Source: Anaerolineaceae bacterium
GTDB taxonomy: Bacteria; Chloroflexota; Anaerolineae; JAAYZQ01
Reading direction: 5' to 3'
NCBI GenBank assembly: GCA_012514775.1
Contig: JAAYZQ010000403.1
Location: forward strand, 1 to 8,787
Length of the DNA: 8,787 bases
Notes under the pieces: model-generated
Seen by the model: the letters and a program-made list of their open reading frames with translations, nothing else
The model's database searches: none
Told to the model about the DNA's origin: nothing
Program-made: the position numbers and the translations under genes
In this document: piece after piece, positions 2,181 to 8,787 of the stretch
Position numbering within the stretch: the first letter of the stretch is position 1
Layout of the letters: every line of letters starts with the position of its first letter

Positions 2181-3497
2181 CTACGGCAAGGTCACCACGG
2201 CTGTCATGCGCCATTTCAGCCTCGGATCCTCCTCCTCGGGGACGACGACGACGGTATAGGTCACGTCCCCGAGCTTTTCCTCGCCCAGGGGCTTGACGCG
2301 AAGCACGCGGCCCGGCAGCTCCAGGCCGGGGATAGCATCGAAGGTGAGGGACACGCGGTCGCCCTCCTCCACGCCGACGATGTCCAACTCGGTCAGGTCG
2401 TCCGTCTCGATCTCCCAGGAGCGCAGGTCGGCCAGGGCGGCCACGGGCACCCCGGCCGTCGCCAGCTCGCCCTCCCTGACGTAGAGCAGCGCCAGGGTGC
2501 CGGCAAAGGGAGCGCGCAGCTCGGTGTCGGCCAGGCCGGCATCGGCCCGTTCCAGGGTGGCCCGCGCTTGCTCGACGGCCGCGGCGCCGGCATCCAGGTC
2601 CTCGCTTCGGGCTCCGGCTTTCAGCAGCTCGAGCTCGGCCTCCACCTGGCGGACCATGGCCTCGGCTTCGGCAATCTCGCTGGCCGTCGCCGGCTCGTGC
2701 AGGCGGTCGAGGGTAGCCTGGGACTCCTTGATCTGGGCCCGCGCGCCGGCCACGGCATCGGCCTCGGGCTCGTCAAAGAGGGCGTCGTATCGGGCCCTGG
2801 CCGCCTCGTAGGCATTGGTGGCCTGCTGCAGTTGCAGGCTCTCGGGCAACATGGCAATGTCGCCGCGGGCAGCAACGCGGTCGTAGGCGGTCTGGGCCTG
2901 CCGCAGGGTGGCCTCGGCATTGGCCAGCTCTGCCTCGGCGGCAATGCGGAGCGCCTCTTCCGGGCCCTCGTATAGGCGATCCAGCGTGGCCTGGGCGGCC
3001 TGCAGCGCCGCCTGAGCGGCGGCAAGGTCCCCGGCTCGGGCCCCTTCCTGGAGGCGTGCCAGGCGCGCCCGGGCGGCCGCCAGGCCAGCCTCGGCCGCGG
3101 CAATCTCCTGGCGTCGGGCGCCCGCCTGAAGGTTCGCGTACTGCGCCTCGGTACTGGCCAGGGCCGCCTTGGCTTCGGCCACGGCGGCCCGCTGATGGGC
3201 ATCCTGCAAGCGGAGGATGAGCTCTCCCTCCTCGACGCTAGCCCCCTCTTCCACCAGGATCTCGGCCACGATGCCGCCGGCCGCCATGCTCAGGGTGGCG
3301 TGGCGCCGGGGCACGACCACGCCCTCGGCCACCACCGCCCGGAGCTCCGGCGCCGGCGTGGGAGCCTGCGTCGCTGCTTCGGAGGCATTGGCCACCTCTC
3401 CCTTCTCGGCAAAGAGGGGCACGCTGCCCGTCACAAACATCACTACAACCGTCAAGATGAGCGCCAGCCCGAGGGCCAGCAAAAGCAGTTTTTTCAA
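2181..3497 (-). CDS. HlyD/MacA-type membrane fusion (adaptor) protein of ABC exporter
   Basis: Adaptor subunit of a tripartite ABC exporter, 438 aa. Residues 4-24 form a hydrophobic signal anchor ([20 protein letters not shown]) with no lipobox cysteine, so it is likely a single-pass protein facing outward. A Pro/Ala-rich stretch (36-50) leads to a first half-lipoyl segment (about 66-98, [18 protein letters not shown]). Residues 99-318 are Ala/Glu/Leu-rich coiled-coil hairpin, built largely of 26-residue repeats (separate entry). The second half-lipoyl (about 325-358, [18 protein letters not shown]) and a beta-barrel/proximal part (about 360-438) follow. The start is TTG, overlapping the TGA of the upstream ATPase gene as TTGA; an in-frame TAA lies just upstream and AAGGAGAG sits about 8 nt before the TTG, so this start is well supported. 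It is the last gene of the operon. The cargo cannot be read from the sequence. No outer-membrane TolC-like partner is in the window. Confidence 0.92.
2547..3131 (-). repeat. Six 26-residue protein repeats (3 + 3) in the adaptor coiled coil
   Basis: Within the adaptor, residues 123-148, 149-174 and 175-200 are three consecutive 26-residue units, and 240-265, 266-291 and 292-317 are three more. Units begin with Leu, usually followed by a Gly or Pro at unit position 4 or 5 ([36 protein letters not shown]), and mostly end in an A.L.R-like helix (ATLDR, ATLER). The 39 residues between the sets (201-239) carry the family's usual hairpin-tip look (AYDRV...GDIAMLPES...[10 protein letters not shown]). 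The repeats are degenerate at DNA level and were found by reading the protein. Gly/Pro at each unit start suggests a regular kink or turn in each arm. Confidence 0.75.
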
Positions 3498-4309
3498 CGA
3501 GTTCTCTCCTTAGAATGCCTGGATGCGGAAGCATTGACCTCGTCGACGAACCGGCCGTCGGCGAGGGTCAGGACGCGCGGCACACGTCGTGCCAGCTCGC
3601 GGTCGTGGGTCACCATCAGGATTGTCTTGCCCTCGGCCACAAGCGCTTCAAACAGGGCAAAGATCGTCTCGGCCGTCCTGGAGTCCAGGTTGCCCGTGGG
3701 CTCGTCGGCGACGAGGATGGGCGGATCGTTGGCCAGGGCGCGGGCAATGGCCGCCCGCTGCTGGTGCCCGCCCGAGACGGCGGCCGGAAACTTGTCGGCC
3801 TCTTCGGCGACGCCCACCTGGGCCAGGCGATGCATGGCCCGCTCGCGGCGCTCGGCGGGGTCGTACACGCCACACAGGTCCATGGGCAGGATGACGTTCT
3901 CGACCAGGGTCAGGGCCGGCAAGAGCTGGAAGAACTGGAAGACAATGCCCAGGTTGCGACCCCGCCACTCGGCCATCTGGCTCTCGTCCAGAGCCCGGAT
4001 TTGGGTGCGGGCTACGATGGCCTCGCCCTCGGTGGGGTGGTCAATGCCGGTGAACATGTTGATCAGAGTCGACTTGCCGCTGCCCGATTTGCCCACCACT
4101 GCCACGAACTCGCCCGGGCAGATCTGGAGGTCGATGTCGGTGAGGGCCGTGAATGCCCCGGCATCCGTTTCGTATACCTTGGAGATGCCCCGCAGGTCGA
4201 TCATGGCCTCCATACCCCCCGAGCCCGCATCATGGACGGGATCGGACGGAGGTGGAGCGCTGGCAATCCGGCCCCGGACGCGGCTGCCCCGGCTGAAGAG
4301 GTCAAACAT
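3494..4309 (-). CDS. ABC transporter ATP-binding protein 2 (LolD/MacB-type)
   Basis: Nucleotide-binding subunit that powers the exporter from the cytosolic side. From the ATG at 4309 (271 aa): Walker [10 protein letters not shown] (73-81), Q-loop [10 protein letters not shown] (Gln125), signature [15 protein letters not shown] (Ser179, with His182 replacing the usual Gln of LSGGQ), Walker [13 protein letters not shown] (catalytic Glu203) and switch His235 in MVTHDRE. The core begins only at about residue 36 ([11 protein letters not shown]), leaving an N-terminal Ser/Pro/Gly/Arg-rich extension absent from the neighbouring paralogue. ATG 4309 is chosen because it gives an 8-nt overlap with the upstream stop and a GGGAG 9 nt upstream, the same geometry as ATPase 1. 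Alternatives are ATG at 4318 (17-nt overlap), or 4213 and 4204, which would remove the extension. It is clearly paralogous to ATPase 1 and probably pairs with it as a heterodimer under the fused permease. Confidence 0.93.
3504..3511 (-). promoter_or_regulatory. Ribosome binding site deciding the TTG start of the adaptor
   Basis: Minus strand reads AAGGAGAG, with the AGGAG core 8 nt before TTG 3497. It lies inside the 3' end of the ATPase 2 gene. Together with the in-frame TAA upstream, it fixes TTG as the adaptor start. Confidence 0.75.
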
Positions 4310-5027
4310 TGGTCCCATCTCCCGCGCCGCCCTGCCGGTCGCTCACGATCTCGCCGTCGGCAAGGTGCACCACCCGGCTGACGCGGGAAGCCACGTCCCG
4401 GTCGTGGGTGACCATCAGGATGGTGCGACCCTGTTCCACCAGCCCCTCAAAGACGCGCAACACGTCGTCCGCGGTCTTGCTGTCGAGGTTGCCCGTGGGC
4501 TCGTCGGCTGCCAGGAAATCGGGATCGTTGGCCAGGGCCCGGGCGATGGCCACCCGCTGGCGCTGCCCGCCCGACACGGCCGAGGGAAGCTTGTCGGCCT
4601 GCTCGACAATGCCCACCTGGTCGAGGAGGTAGAGGGCCCGCTCGCGCTGTTCCTTCGACGAGCCGTACAGCCCGGCAAAGTCCATGGGCAACATGACGTT
4701 CTGCGCGCAGGTGAGCATGGGCAGCAACTGGAAGAACTGGAAGATGACGCCCACCGTGCGCCCGCGCCAGCCCGCGATCTGGTCTTCGTTCATCTTGTGC
4801 ACGTCTCGCTCTCCGACGCGCACCTGGCCGGTCGTCGGCCGATCGATGCCCGTCACCATGTTCACCAGCGTGGACTTGCCCGCACCCGACTTGCCCACGA
4901 TGGCCACGAACTCGCCGGGCCAGATGTGCAGGTCGATGTCCTTCAGGGCATAGAATGCACCTGCAGGAGTGCGGTAAGCCTTGGTCAGGCCGGCCACCTG
5001 GATCAGGGGCTGCTGCGACTCATTCAT
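4302..5027 (-). CDS. ABC transporter ATP-binding protein 1 (LolD/MacB-type)
   Basis: ATPase subunit of the exporter, 241 aa, cytosolic. Motifs in order: A-loop region [13 protein letters not shown] with Tyr18, Walker [10 protein letters not shown] (45-53), Q-loop [10 protein letters not shown] (Gln97), signature [15 protein letters not shown] (Ser152), Walker [13 protein letters not shown] (catalytic Glu176) and switch His208 in MVTHDRD. All catalytic elements are present, and the length and the [13 protein letters not shown] wording match the MacB/LolD class that serves FtsX-type permeases. The ATG overlaps the permease stop by 8 nt (ATGAATGA), and GAGAGG lies 9 nt upstream inside the permease gene, so translation is probably coupled. 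Its signature is canonical at SGGQ, unlike ATPase 2, so the two composite ATP sites would not be identical. Substrate specificity cannot be inferred from this subunit. Confidence 0.95.
4319..4323 (-). promoter_or_regulatory. Ribosome binding site favouring ATG 4309 of ATPase 2
   Basis: Minus strand GGGAG, 9 nt before ATG 4309, the same spacing as for ATPase 1. It is directly adjacent to the alternative ATG 4318, which argues against that longer start. Confidence 0.5.
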
Positions 5028-7410
5028 ACGCCAAAACCTCTCGAATTGTCATCTGCACCGCGCTGCGAGCCGGCCCCAGGCTGGCGACGACGGCCACACC
5101 CAGGAGGACAAAGAACCAGGCAATGGCAGCGATCAGCGAGTAGCGGTGGGTTAGCGGTACCTGGATGAGGACCAGGCCCAGTTGCTCGCTCATGACAGCA
5201 CTCACGGGCACCGAAAGGGCGGCGCCCACAATCCAGCTCAGGACGCCCAGCGCCAGGCCCTCGACCAGGACGATCTTGCGCACCGACAGGTTTGAAGCGC
5301 CGATGGCGCGCAAGACACCGATCTCGCGCACCCGCTCCAGGACGTTGATGCTCATGGTGGTGGTCAGGCCCAGCCCGCCCACGGCCGCCAACAGCAGGGC
5401 CATGAGGACCAGGAAGGCGACGATGATGGTGAACAGGAGCTTGTTCTCGGCGCGCATCACCTGCGTGGTCTCGGTGGCGCTGACGCCCAGGCCCTGTGCC
5501 TCGAAATGTTCCAGGAGGCGCAGGGCCATCTCTTCCTGGCTCGCGGCGTCGTGCTGCCGGGTCACCACCTGCACGCGGTCCACCTGGTCGGGCCTGCGCG
5601 CCGCGTACCCATAGTCGTCGAGGGCAACATAGATGGCCGGCCCCGCCGCCTCGGTGGGCACGCTGCCCACCACGCGCCACGAGGACTCCCGGCCAGCGAT
5701 GTCGAGAAGGATGTCGTCACCCACCCCCAGGCCGGGCTCCCGATCCAGCACGTCGCTGTTGACCACCACGGAATTGGGCACAGAAGCCGGTAGCCATTGG
5801 CCGTCCAGGATCTCGGGCCTGATGAGGAGCGAGCCGCGGGGCGCGGCATACAGGCGCATGCTCTCACTCTCGGTGCCATCGGGCCGCTGCCAGGTAGCAC
5901 TGTCCGCCGCCCAGCCCTCGACCGCCACGACGCCCGGCACCTGGAGGGCAGCCTGCTCCACCCGCGCCATCCGCTGCGGCCGGTCGAGGCGCACCGACAC
6001 ATCGTAGCCGTGAAAGCGCATGAAATTCTCGACCGTGGCGTCCACCGAGGCCCAGGCGCTGATCACCGAGATGAACAGCGCGGTGCCGACGATGAGCACG
6101 ACGAGAGTTTGGAGCAATCGTCCCTTGTGGCGCAGCGTGTTGCGTACCGCCAAGAGTGCAGGGCGCTGCAACGAGAGGGCCTTTTGCACCCAGCGCACCA
6201 GGCGCTCCAGGACTCCACGCCGATAGCCGCCCCTCTCGATGCCCACGTCGTTAAGGGCCCTCTGGGTCGTCACCCCTGTTCCGCGGATGACGGGCACCAG
6301 CCCTGCCAGGACCGGCAGCACCAGGCCGACCGCCGCCTGGATGACCACGAGGTGGACCGGCACAGACAGGTCGTCGATGAGGACGTTGAGCATGCCATCC
6401 ACCATGCTGATCATGAGGGCCTGGGACGTCAACAGAGCAAGGGGAATGCCGACGACAATGGCGATGGCGCCATAGACCAGGACGGTGACGATGTACAGGC
6501 TCATGATCTGCCAGCGGCGGGCGCCGATGAGCTTCATGACGCCGATCTGCGGGATCTGCTGGGTGATGAGCGCCGTGATGGCATTGACCACCAGGAACCC
6601 GGAGAGCAACAGGATGAGGATGCCAAACGTGGACAGGATGAGCACGATGGCCTCGATAAAGGGGTCGGCAAAGGCTTCGGTGATCACCCGCCGGCCCAGG
6701 ACCTGCCTGCCGGTTCGCTCCAGGTGGGCCTCGACTTCGTCGATCATGGCCAGGATGTGCGCCTCGTCCCGGGGTCTCTCTTCAAGGGTCAGGTGCAGCT
6801 CGGTGTACGACTCGTCCAGGCCAAGAGCACCCACGGTTTCCAGCGTGATATAACCGGTGGGCCGGTTGGTGATGCTGGGGCCCAGCTCCTGGGGATCGTG
6901 GGCCGTGCCGACCACGGTTAGCGTCTTGGTCGCGCCATCCTCCAGCTCCACGACCAGGTCCTGTCCGATCTCCGTGGCCAGGTATTCAGGCGCCAGGCGC
7001 TCCAGGAGCACCTCGCGCTTCCCGGGCGGCCAGCTTCCCTGCACGTGGGTGAGGGCATCCACCTGCGCCCCTTCAAAGCTGGGCAGTGCCACCAGGATCA
7101 CGTCACCCCGGGAGCCATCCGGATAGGTAAAGTGGGTCGTCACCACCCGCCGGCCTTCGGCCGCCAACACGCCCGGAATCTCGGCGATCCTCTCGGCCAG
7201 GTCCTCCTGGAAGGGCTGGGTGTAGAGGATGGCCGAGGCGAGCCGCGCCCCCTCCTGGTCGCTGCCGTACTCGCGCACGACCATCTCGCGCGTGTTCAGG
7301 ACGACGCCCACAGCATAGACACCTACGGCGATGGCCAGAGCCACCACGAGGGTGCGACCGCGGTGCCGCCACAGATCTAGGAGTACTTTTAGCCATCTGG
7401 GCTGTAACAT
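5020..7410 (-). CDS. Tandem FtsX/MacB-type ABC transporter permease
   Basis: Membrane subunit of the exporter, with two FtsX-like permease modules in one chain of 796 aa counted from the ATG at 7410. Module 1 has TM1 (about 20-38), an extracytoplasmic domain (about 39-250) and TM2-4 (about 252-277, 305-327, 352-375), with the coupling motif [16 protein letters not shown]. Module 2 has TM5 (about 433-454), a second external domain (about 455-656) and TM6-8 (about 658-682, 714-736, 756-778), with [15 protein letters not shown]. This 4+4 layout matches type VII (MacB/LolCDE-like) mechanotransmitters, which couple ATP use to movement of outside domains rather than to a membrane channel. The frame is open back to a start at 7518, but that would place the N-terminus over the promoter and operators. 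ATG 7434 (MFRESRDE) is a nearer alternative, with no ribosome site. 7410 is preferred because the amphipathic/TM1 segment follows directly ([20 protein letters not shown]); its ribosome site is weak (GAGACGAG directly before). First gene of the operon. Confidence 0.92.
5037..5042 (-). promoter_or_regulatory. Ribosome binding site of ATPase 1
   Basis: Minus strand GAGAGG, 9 nt before ATG 5027, located inside the last codons of the permease gene. Confidence 0.6.
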
Positions 7411-7442
7411 CTCGTCTCGACTTTCTCTGAACATCAAAGGTA

Positions 7443-7469
7443 CGGCGCAGGACTTGTGCCTGTGCGCCG
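7443..7469 (-). other. Stem-loop in the exporter mRNA leader
   Basis: CGGCGCA (7443-7449) pairs perfectly with TGCGCCG (7463-7469). Inside it, GG (7450-7451) can pair with CC (7459-7460) across a 2-nt bulge, leaving a 7-nt loop. It lies in the predicted leader, starting a few nucleotides after the transcription start and ending about 30 nt before ATG 7410. No T-run follows on either strand, so it is not an intrinsic terminator. It may stabilise the mRNA or be a binding or attenuation element. Confidence 0.5.
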
Positions 7470-7481
7470 CACCCGAGCCAT

Positions 7482-7487
7482 AGTATA
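7482..7487 (-). promoter_or_regulatory. -10 box of the exporter operon promoter
   Basis: On the minus strand 7487 to 7482 reads TATACT, a one-mismatch -10 hexamer. The -35 region 17 bp upstream (7505-7510, GGCGAG on that strand) is poor. The predicted start is about 7475, leaving a leader of about 65 nt before ATG 7410. A palindromic operator lies immediately upstream, which suits an activated promoter. Confidence 0.55.
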
Positions 7488-7498
7488 CGCTGTCGGGC

Positions 7499-7516
7499 GT
7501 CACTCTCGCCAGTGAC
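7499..7516. promoter_or_regulatory. Overlapping inverted repeat GTCACT-N6-AGTGAC
   Basis: Perfect 6-bp arms at 7499-7504 and 7511-7516. It adds a fifth GTCAC half-site on the exporter side and spans the poor -35 of the exporter promoter. Its centre, 7507.5, is 11 bp, about one helical turn, from palindrome A. It could be an auxiliary or repressing site, or a chance partner of palindrome A. Confidence 0.5.
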
Positions 7517-7525
7517 ACCTGTCAC
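7512..7525. promoter_or_regulatory. Operator palindrome A, GTGACA-CC-TGTCAC
   Basis: Six-bp arms with a 2-nt centre; centre at 7518.5, about 36 bp upstream of the last base of the exporter -10 box and about -43 from its predicted start. It also fits the GTGA-N6-TCAC core known for CRP-family sites. It shares its left half-site with an overlapping inverted repeat, GTCACT-N6-AGTGAC (7499-7516). Confidence 0.7.
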
Positions 7526-7531
7526 CAAAAG

Positions 7532-7543
7532 TGTCACGTGACA
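7532..7543. promoter_or_regulatory. Operator palindrome B, TGTCACGTGACA
   Basis: A perfect 12-bp palindrome made of the same half-sites as palindrome A in inverted order, separated from it by CAAAAG. Its centre, 7537.5, is about 35 bp upstream of the last base of the kinase -10 box, i.e. about -42 from the predicted kinase start: a classic activator position abutting the -35 region. Confidence 0.7.
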
Positions 7544-7564
7544 TAGGCTCCTTGTCCCAGAATG

Positions 7565-7573
7565 TGGTATAAT
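7565..7573 (+). promoter_or_regulatory. Extended -10 promoter of the kinase gene (leaderless)
   Basis: TGGTATAAT is a perfect -10 hexamer (7568-7573) preceded by the TGn of an extended -10. The expected -35 position (about 7545-7550, AGGCTC) does not resemble TTGACA. The predicted start, 6-7 nt after the hexamer, is the A of ATG 7580, which would make the mRNA leaderless. No Shine-Dalgarno sequence precedes that ATG, which agrees. The poor -35 plus a palindrome just upstream suggests activator-dependent firing. Confidence 0.7.
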
Positions 7574-7579
7574 GGTGCC

Positions 7580-8787
7580 ATGAACGAGAGGGAGTTGGAG
7601 CCTGGCTTCTTGCAGGCTTTTCGATTTTTCGTCGCCATCCGCATCGTCTTCTGGATCATCATCGGGCCCATCCTCGTGGTGGTCAACATGGCCCAGGGCG
7701 CGAGCATGCCCCTCTCCGAGATTGCCAACCTGACGCTCATCGAGCGGCTGACACTGCCCAACATCGCTCCCATCCTGGTCATGGAGGTGGCGCTCCTGCT
7801 GCTGTTGACACTGCCCCAGGTGGCCCGCAGCCTGCGCAGCCGGTTCGTGCCCATCATGCTGGTCCTGGCCCTCATCCCCCTCCTGGTGGGCCAGTATTGG
7901 TGGCCGGCGGAAAACCCGCTGCAGACGCCCTTTGTCATCTTCTTTTTTGTGATGCTGGTCTTTATCGCGTGGCAATACAGCTTTCGCTACGTCCTGACCT
8001 ACGTCCTGGCCCTGACCCTCTACCAGGCACGCTTTACCCGGATCCTGGAGAGCTGGCCGCTGAGCTTTAACGTGGGCTGGTTGATCCTGCAAGCGGCCAT
8101 GATGCTCATCGTCGGCTATATCATCGTCCAGCTCGTGTCCATCCATCGCGAGCAGCGGGCAGCCCTGGCCGAGGCCTACGAGCGCCAGGCCGCTGCCCAC
8201 CGCCGGCTGCAACAGTACGCCGCCACGGTAGAGCAACTGACCATCAGCCGCGAGCGAAACCGCCTGGCCCGCGAGCTGCACGACACGCTGGCTCACTCCC
8301 TCAGCGCCGCCACCGTCCAGTTGGAGGCCGTCCGCTCGGTGTGGCACGTGGACAGGGCCCGAGCCCGGATCTTGCTGGATCAGACCGACGAGACAGTCCG
8401 CCGCGGCCTGGTGGAGGCGCGGCGAGCCATGCAGCGACTGCGGGCCTCGCCCCTGGAAGATAAGGGGCTTACGGGAGCGCTGCGCGAGCTTGCCGAGACG
8501 GCCGCCGAGCGGTCGGGCGCCGCCCTGCAACTGGCCATGGAGCCCAACCTCGACGGCCACGTGGCACCGGCCGCGGAGCAGGGGCTCTATCGCATTGCCC
8601 AGGAAGCGCTGGAGAACGTGGTGCGCCACGCCGAGGCGCGCAACATCGGTGTGCGGCTGGAGGCCCAGGACGGGCGCCTGGTCCTGACCGTCGAAGACGA
8701 CGGCCAGGGGATCACTGCCGGCGATGAGCAGAACGGGCAATCCCCCAACCGCAACGGGCTCGGTATCCTGGGCATGAAGGAACGTGC
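7580..8787 (+). CDS. NarL/DesK-type membrane sensor histidine kinase, 3'-truncated by the window edge
   Basis: Sensor kinase of the HisKA_3 class, which phosphorylates LuxR/NarL-type response regulators. The 402 codons present read: short cytosolic N-terminus, about six membrane segments (roughly 17-37, 62-78, 88-105, 117-131, 134-149, 164-187) with short loops, a helical linker (188-222), the phosphoacceptor motif SRERNRLARELHDTLAHSLS (His234), N-box QEALENVVRHAEA (Asn346), G1 VEDDGQGI (371-378) and the start of G2, GLGILGMKER (393 on). No large external sensor domain is seen, so it may sense within or at the membrane. The only in-frame starts after the TAG at 7544 are ATG 7562 and ATG 7580. 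7580 is preferred because a TATAAT box covers 7568-7573, so transcription would begin at about 7580. Divergent to the exporter operon; the cognate regulator gene is expected just beyond the window. Confidence 0.93.
   Translation, partial: MNERELEPGFLQAFRFFVAIRIVFWIIIGPILVVVNMAQGASMPLSEIANLTLIERLTLPNIAPILVMEVALLLLLTLPQVARSLRSRFVPIMLVLALIPLLVGQYWWPAENPLQTPFVIFFFVMLVFIAWQYSFRYVLTYVLALTLYQARFTRILESWPLSFNVGWLILQAAMMLIVGYIIVQLVSIHREQRAALAEAYERQAAAHRRLQQYAATVEQLTISRERNRLARELHDTLAHSLSAATVQLEAVRSVWHVDRARARILLDQTDETVRRGLVEARRAMQRLRASPLEDKGLTGALRELAETAAERSGAALQLAMEPNLDGHVAPAAEQGLYRIAQEALENVVRHAEARNIGVRLEAQDGRLVLTVEDDGQGITAGDEQNGQSPNRNGLGILGMKER

Follow-up and report, generated by a model that had tools for sequence, protein, structure and literature searches.

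A putative DesR-type operator between a DesK-like sensor kinase gene and a MacB-like exporter operon in Anaerolineae

We identified a candidate operator in the spacer between a sensor kinase gene and a divergent exporter operon in an 8,787-nucleotide stretch of DNA from an Anaerolineaceae bacterium, probably a metagenome contig and hereafter called the window. Judging from sequence, the array of half-sites in this spacer is probably where the kinase's own regulator binds to activate the exporter promoter, as an operator of the DesR type. The predicted working unit is an inverted repeat (7512-7525) together with a separate half-site (7498-7504), which corrects the grouping of half-sites first proposed. 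We infer the binder, the need for phosphorylation, activation and the signal. The finding would add Chloroflexota to the Firmicutes in which the DesR operator grammar is known, and it provides an operator whose half-sites, spacings and promoter register are testable.

The exporter operon and the kinase gene are transcribed divergently from the spacer, which spans 7411-7579. On the minus strand, the presumed target operon begins with an FtsX/MacB-type exporter permease (5020-7410; Pfam FtsX), whose start at 7410 was set by an alignment of 22 relatives. It continues with two LolD/MacB-like ABC ATPases (4302-5027 and 3494-4318), both of which match Pfam ABC_tran and have best NCBIfam matches below the cut-off, the start codon of the second being uncertain. 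The last gene encodes an HlyD-type membrane fusion protein (2181-3497; Pfam HlyD_3, with NCBIfam RND_mfp just under the cut-off), again with an uncertain start codon. On the plus strand lies a DesK-like HisKA_3 sensor kinase gene (7580-8787; Pfam HisKA_3 and HATPase_c), which runs off the end of the window; the regulator gene is outside it. By eye, the N-terminal part of the kinase has five or six membrane helices and lacks a large outside domain, and its best PDB matches are DesK/YocF entries (best E 1.2e-12). The nearest named relatives of the window's proteins are in Anaerolineae, and database relatives of 58-99% identity exist. A separate PAS-repeat HisKA sensor kinase gene (3-2135), cut at the window start, is convergent with the HlyD-type gene. 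No RNA element was found in the window with Rfam at gathering scores.

Five half-sites are present in the spacer: GTCAC at 7499-7503, GTGAC at 7512-7516, and GTCAC at 7521-7525 and 7533-7537, followed by GTGAC at 7538-7542. They make up five of the window's 20, and the densest 45-bp stretch outside the spacer holds two. Among 5000 dinucleotide shuffles of the spacer (mean 0.82), a single one reaches five. The first-pass annotation had reported these half-sites and two palindromes built from them, and a symmetry count confirms both: 7512-7525 reads GTGACA-CC-TGTCAC, with 12 of 14 bases symmetric and both arms perfect, and 7532-7543 is a perfect 12-bp palindrome. The overlapping inverted repeat that it also listed is another combination of the same five half-sites. 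The inverted repeat GTGACA-N2-TGTCAC (boxes 2 and 3; 7512-7525, assigned to neither strand) is the proposed core operator. It is an instance of a class-wide motif, RTGACRNNYGTCAY, found near the starts of kinase/NarL-regulator operons, and may be compared with the DesR motif ATGACA-N2-TGTCAT. On the minus strand it is followed by a 7-nt linker (7505-7511) and then by a direct half-site, AGTGACG (box 1; 7498-7504), located 10 nt upstream of the predicted exporter -10. The second palindrome, TGTCACGTGACA (boxes 4 and 5; 7532-7543, likewise without strand), has an everted arrangement, varies between lineages and is a possible kinase-side site.

All -10 boxes and start sites discussed here are predictions. 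The exporter -10, TATACT (7482-7487, minus strand), has neither a TG extension nor a -35. The kinase -10, TATAAT (7568-7573, plus strand), has the extended form TGG-TATAAT; this element, TGGTATAAT (7565-7573), ends 6 nt before the ATG at 7580, which predicts a leaderless transcript. A consensus scan of the spacer found no sigma-70-type promoter with a -35. This agrees with the original view that both promoters lack a good -35, but the extended nature of the kinase -10 had been missed. The distances given there also hold: measured from the final base of whichever -10 is closer, the centre of the first palindrome is 36.5 bp away and that of the second 35.5 bp (37 and 36 by the integer count used below).

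Comparison with orthologous spacers indicates which parts of this arrangement are kept. A scan of genome contigs yielded four permease relatives, and a divergent kinase gene lies beside two of them, L001 and L002 (L061 and L062 in the numbering of kinase loci). A kinase search of 22 genomes added a third locus, L063, where the contig edge leaves only the first 32 residues of the divergent permease. The kinases of L001, L002 and L063 are 57%, 54% and 50% identical to that of the window. A 46-bp array aligns without gaps in the window, L001 and L002, with pairwise identities of 30, 32 and 34 of 46 (shuffled maximum 28). The spacing of boxes 1-3 is the same in all three orthologous spacers; L063 has lost the fifth box, and its fourth has moved closer by one base. 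The inverted repeat matches RTGACR-N2-YGTCAY at 12 of 12 positions in the window and L063 and at 11 of 12 in L001 and L002, where one arm base is off. Read on the exporter strand, all four loci have the order inverted repeat, N7, half-site, N10 and TATNNT: GTGACAGGTGTCAC-N7-AGTGACG-N10-TATACT in the window, GTGACAGGTGACAC-N7-CATGACA-N10-TATCAT in L001, ATGACAGGTGACAC-N7-CGTGACG-N10-TATAGT in L002, and ATGACACGCGTCAC-N7-CATGACA-N10-TATGCT in L063. Thus the direct half-site, the linker of exactly 7 nt and the exporter hexamer are in place in four of four spacers, as is the leaderless extended -10 of the kinase. An exact search for the three-half-site pattern gave one occurrence each in genomes G001, G002 and G196, at this operator, and a search of G001 and G002 with a longer pattern, in which three mismatches were allowed, likewise gave this place only.

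The distances to the two promoters behave differently. From the centre of the inverted repeat to the end of the exporter -10 there are 37 bp in every one of the four spacers. The corresponding distances to the end of the kinase -10 are 55, 174, 50 and 95 bp (window, L001, L002 and L063), and those from palindrome 2 or its remnant are 36, 155, 31 and 77 bp. Palindrome 2 itself is intact in the window and L002, degenerate in L001, and reduced in L063 to a lone half-site shifted by 1 bp. The near-symmetric two-promoter geometry that had been proposed is therefore not upheld, since only the exporter side keeps a fixed distance; the comparison with related genomes, put forward with that proposal as its check, upholds boxes 1-3 and their spacing but not palindrome 2 or the kinase-side geometry. 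As read from these spacers, the conserved register in this clade is at the exporter promoter only, and the striking symmetry seen in a single genome is the less conserved part. A symmetric two-palindrome model as a conserved design was rejected on comparing the same four spacers. We also discarded a reading of boxes 2 and 3 as a direct repeat (TGTCACCTGTCAC in L001 and L002), which arose early, TGWCA being nearly its own complement; the class-wide data favour an inverted repeat.

Those data come from a motif, RTGACRNNYGTCAY, derived from the window and loci L063-L066 and tested on other kinase loci. Within 150 bp, 26 held-out loci gave 12 full matches and 17 matches of at least 11/12, where shuffles gave means of 0.03 and 0.25. 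When the spacer was varied for these loci at the threshold of at least 11/12, N0, N1 and N3-N6 gave none and N8 gave one, so that among inverted repeats with N0-N6 or N8 the N2 form alone is enriched. The everted N0 form, which is that of palindrome 2, has a full match in four of the 26. Fetching 40 more loci brought the held-out set to 66 (17 of 90 kinase places were left out, and L078 was dropped as having no upstream DNA). Near the kinase start there were 24 full matches in this set and 34 of at least 11/12; over 60 rounds of shuffling, full matches averaged 0.02 (maximum 1) and those of at least 11/12 averaged 0.75 (maximum 6). These loci are related by descent; after similar regulators were collapsed, 29 of 61 groups, each represented by its first member, retained an inverted repeat of at least 11/12. 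The occurrence of such a repeat follows the recognition helix of the regulator, with 26 of 41 loci for TVRN and one of 10 for TVKN (Fisher p 0.0036; both the 11/12 threshold and this split were chosen after seeing the data), and seven of 15 where no helix was read. The other 32 of the 66 loci lack an inverted repeat of at least 11/12, including 15 of the 41 with TVRN regulators.

Two additional arrangements were seen at these loci. A direct RTGACR half-site lies exactly 18 nt kinase-ward of the inverted repeat in nine of 34 loci (L075, L098, L100, L101, L108, L110 and three others). In L067, L086, L087 and L089 an extra half-site abuts the inverted repeat in an everted arrangement, the same form as palindrome 2 of the window.

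Promoters across the class are placed at preferred distances from the inverted repeat. In 31 of 72 loci (L061-L133, the window not counted) the element TGNTANNNT precedes the chosen kinase start by 4-10 nt, where shuffles give 0.52. We then considered, ignoring start codons, the 37 loci with an inverted repeat of at least 11/12, a set that excludes the window clade and includes L064-L066, from which the motif was partly derived. In 30 of these the centre of the inverted repeat lies 37, 57-58, 68-69 or 79 bp from the end of the kinase-side extended -10; the remaining seven comprise one at 67, one at 52 and five without an extended -10. For the 32 elements the Rayleigh R is 0.90 at a period of 10.5 bp (0.87 and 0.86 at periods of 10 and 11). 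The far side of the inverted repeat carries 16 extended -10 elements, at 58, 68, 69, 80 (eight times, four of them in the close relatives L086-L089), 89 and 90 (two each) and 92 bp, and among the first 33 loci examined 11 have genes on that side like the exporter genes of the window. Phased elements often stand on both sides of a single inverted repeat, for example in L064 (58/80), L072 (57/68) and L098 (68 and 80/90). The exporter distance of 37 bp in the window clade is on this family register. The kinase promoters of the clade keep no register, except that the window's own palindrome 2, at 36 bp, differs from that of the family by no more than one base. Dependence on one face of the helix is the expected trace of an activator touching RNA polymerase, and fits activation by the kinase's own regulator. 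On sequence grounds, the helical register also suggests which promoter each regulator drives. One site driving two promoters does look common elsewhere in the class, apparently by way of a single inverted repeat between two phased extended -10 elements.

A NarL/GerE-type response regulator gene directly follows the kinase gene in all three orthologues (Pfam was run on the L001 regulator only). The recognition region of these regulators reads SGTVRNYVS or AGTVRNYVS, compared with SGTVRNYIS in DesR and KTVKTHVS in VraR; their GTVRNY motif is thus that of DesR and unlike the KTVKTH of VraR. The whole-protein scores are 167 bits for VraR, 147 for DevR and 129 for DesR. Because VraR and DevR outscore DesR overall, we speak of a DesR-type operator and not of a DesR orthologue. 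The original suggestion that the kinase's own NarL-type regulator is the likely binder gains support from the conserved array, the neighbouring gene, the DesR-like recognition motif, the similarity of the operator to the DesR and RR11 motifs, and the helical phasing. With this regulator as the presumed binder, conservation, motif match and family phasing likewise argue for an operator array with a dimeric site and activator geometry.

A mechanism consistent with these features can be proposed. The kinase would sense a signal, probably membrane-borne, and the NarL/GerE regulator with its DesR-like recognition helix would become phosphorylated. The phosphorylated regulator would bind as a dimer to the inverted repeat at 7512-7525, with a further subunit on the direct half-site at 7498-7504. 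In this position it could substitute for the missing -35 and bring RNA polymerase to the exporter -10 (7487-7482), so that the permease, both ATPases and the fusion protein would be expressed. Even in the absence of activator, a basal level of kinase and regulator should come from their own leaderless extended -10 promoter. Palindrome 2, which is not conserved, may add positive autoregulation in the window.

Similar sites also occur away from such kinases. An exact search of 366 genomes of the class found the three-half-site pattern in 66, where a reversed control pattern was found in three among the matches listed. At 91 loci with such sites, a search at E 1e-6 within the fetched stretch detected a relative of the L002-type regulator at three and the kinase at none, and the motif alone therefore does not identify the binder. 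Uniqueness of the motif was accordingly abandoned as proof of the binder. Most of the similar sites elsewhere lie away from such kinases, and other regulators probably recognise sites of this kind. At eight of the first 30 of these loci there is some ABC ATPase match, and one of the eight, L144, is alone among the 30 in having a relative of the L002-type regulator; the scanned neighbours also include ArsR, PocR, glucose/sorbosone dehydrogenase, acyltransferase and cytochrome genes. In L144 (1480-1675) a NarL-type regulator gene and an ABC transporter gene are divergent, with ATGACAACTGTCAT-N7-TATGACA between them. L135, L141, L146 and others carry two inverted repeats 22 bp apart, of the type GTGACA-N2-TGTCAC-N8-GTGACA-N2-TGTCAC, with no recognisable kinase of the DesK-like family nearby. 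A TANNNT hexamer exactly 10 nt after the half-site is found in six of 108 distinct sites (the window, L001, L002, L063, L067 and L053), and at 8 nt in 10. The L067 site is aimed at a related kinase. The site in L053 (1486-1530, genome G053) is nearly the operator of the window, with which it shares CGTCACTCTCGCCAGTG; it continues with N10-TATGCT and faces an NAD-dependent epimerase gene. Neither a kinase nor an exporter gene adjoins it, and searches of G053 for the permease (E 1e-150) and for the kinase (E 1e-38) found nothing. Such a regulator, or else another protein, may have L053 as an additional target.

Several other explanations for the array deserve consideration. A chance or compositional repeat without function is barely credible: the shortness of the spacer and the origin of all three relatives in a single small order (10 genomes) speak for it, but the rarity of five half-sites in shuffles (1/5000) and their conservation in four divergent loci speak against it. 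A protein of the CRP/FNR family could bind instead, as GTGACACCTGTCAC contains the CRP core, GTGA-N6-TCAC. The inverted repeat of the window is an exact fit to this core, and GTGACATTTGTCAC-like sequences are frequent among the sites away from kinases. However, L001, L002 and L063 do not preserve the core on the exporter strand, although their half-sites and spacing persist, and the initial G and final C that it requires are found together in only four of 34 held-out kinase inverted repeats. The motif moreover tracks the recognition motif of the regulator. A scan of four L001 proteins revealed no CRP-like one, and binding by such a protein is altogether very unlikely. It is also unlikely that the array is a repressor site, whether for the regulator or for another protein. 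One half-site does fall between the would-be -35 and the exporter -10, where a bound protein could block the polymerase. Yet no -35 promoter was found in the spacer, and the distance to the exporter -10 does not vary. In the wider family, moreover, the inverted repeat keeps to one helix face at 37-79 bp upstream of the -10, a geometry typical of activators. Both DesR and RR11 have been described as activating.

A bidirectional switch, as the first-pass annotation envisaged, is possible but less likely than not. Here the regulator would act from the inverted repeat on the exporter and from palindrome 2 on the kinase, and both operons would rise together. The 36 bp between palindrome 2 and the end of the kinase -10 in the window is within 1 bp of the family's register of 37, a single inverted repeat elsewhere in the class often has a phased extended -10 on both sides, and TCS11, a pneumococcal DesK/R-like system, is reported to be positively autoregulated (PMC11034029). 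Against this, palindrome 2 is everted relative to the family inverted repeat and intact in only two of four loci, and its distance to the kinase -10 is not constant (36, 155, 31 and 77 bp). One dimeric activator for sensor and exporter together is supported at the exporter, where the geometry is that of an activator, and not at the kinase, whose geometry is not conserved. Beyond the DesR-type operator aimed at the exporter, we consider it rather probable that the class has a DesK/DesR-like promoter grammar, consisting of one inverted repeat with leaderless extended -10 elements on one helix face, commonly on both sides. One dimer could then auto-activate the sensor and drive a divergent gene, and the window clade would have re-aimed the site at the exporter, at 37 bp with a third half-site replacing the -35, and added a second palindrome.

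Operators of this kind are known from the DesK/DesR family of Bacillus and its relatives; what is new to us is their occurrence in Chloroflexota and the class-wide phased leaderless design, and we found no description of either in the open-access literature searched. The closest resemblance is to the des promoter of B. subtilis, where ATGACA-N2-TGTCAT is likewise accompanied by an additional direct repeat; the HisKA_3 kinase, with DesK as its best PDB match, and the GTVRNY motif are also shared. In contrast to DesK/DesR, the host here is a member of the Chloroflexota, the presumed target is a MacB-like exporter divergent from the kinase, the regulator is overall nearer VraR/DevR, and there are an extra everted palindrome and a leaderless extended -10 kinase promoter. 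A second resemblance is to TCS11, with its regulator RR11, and to YvfTU-type clusters of Firmicutes, which combine sensor, regulator and ABC transporter in one cluster. In PMC11034029, the candidate motif of RR11 is [ATGACATTTGTCAT]-N7-[AGTGACA], highly similar to B. subtilis DesR [ATGACA]-N2-[TGTCAT], and the only specific target found for RR11 is the operon of TCS11 with two ABC transporters; its authors note that the candidate motifs still need biochemical proof. Boxes 1-3 of the window fit this DesR/RR11 grammar including the N7 linker, and box 1, AGTGACG, matches the AGTGACA half-site. The transporter genes of TCS11/YvfTU-type systems are described as upstream of the two-component genes in one four-gene cluster, whereas here there are two divergent operons and an exporter that includes a fusion protein and two ATPases. 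Finally, the spacing recalls class I and class II promoters of CRP in E. coli, which was studied at -41.5, -61.5, -71.5 and -82.5 (PMC6301791); the inverted repeats described here move in similar steps of about 10.5 bp, with a near position at 37 and far ones at 58, 68 and 79. Unlike those of CRP, these sites do not conserve the core, and the presumed binder is a response regulator.
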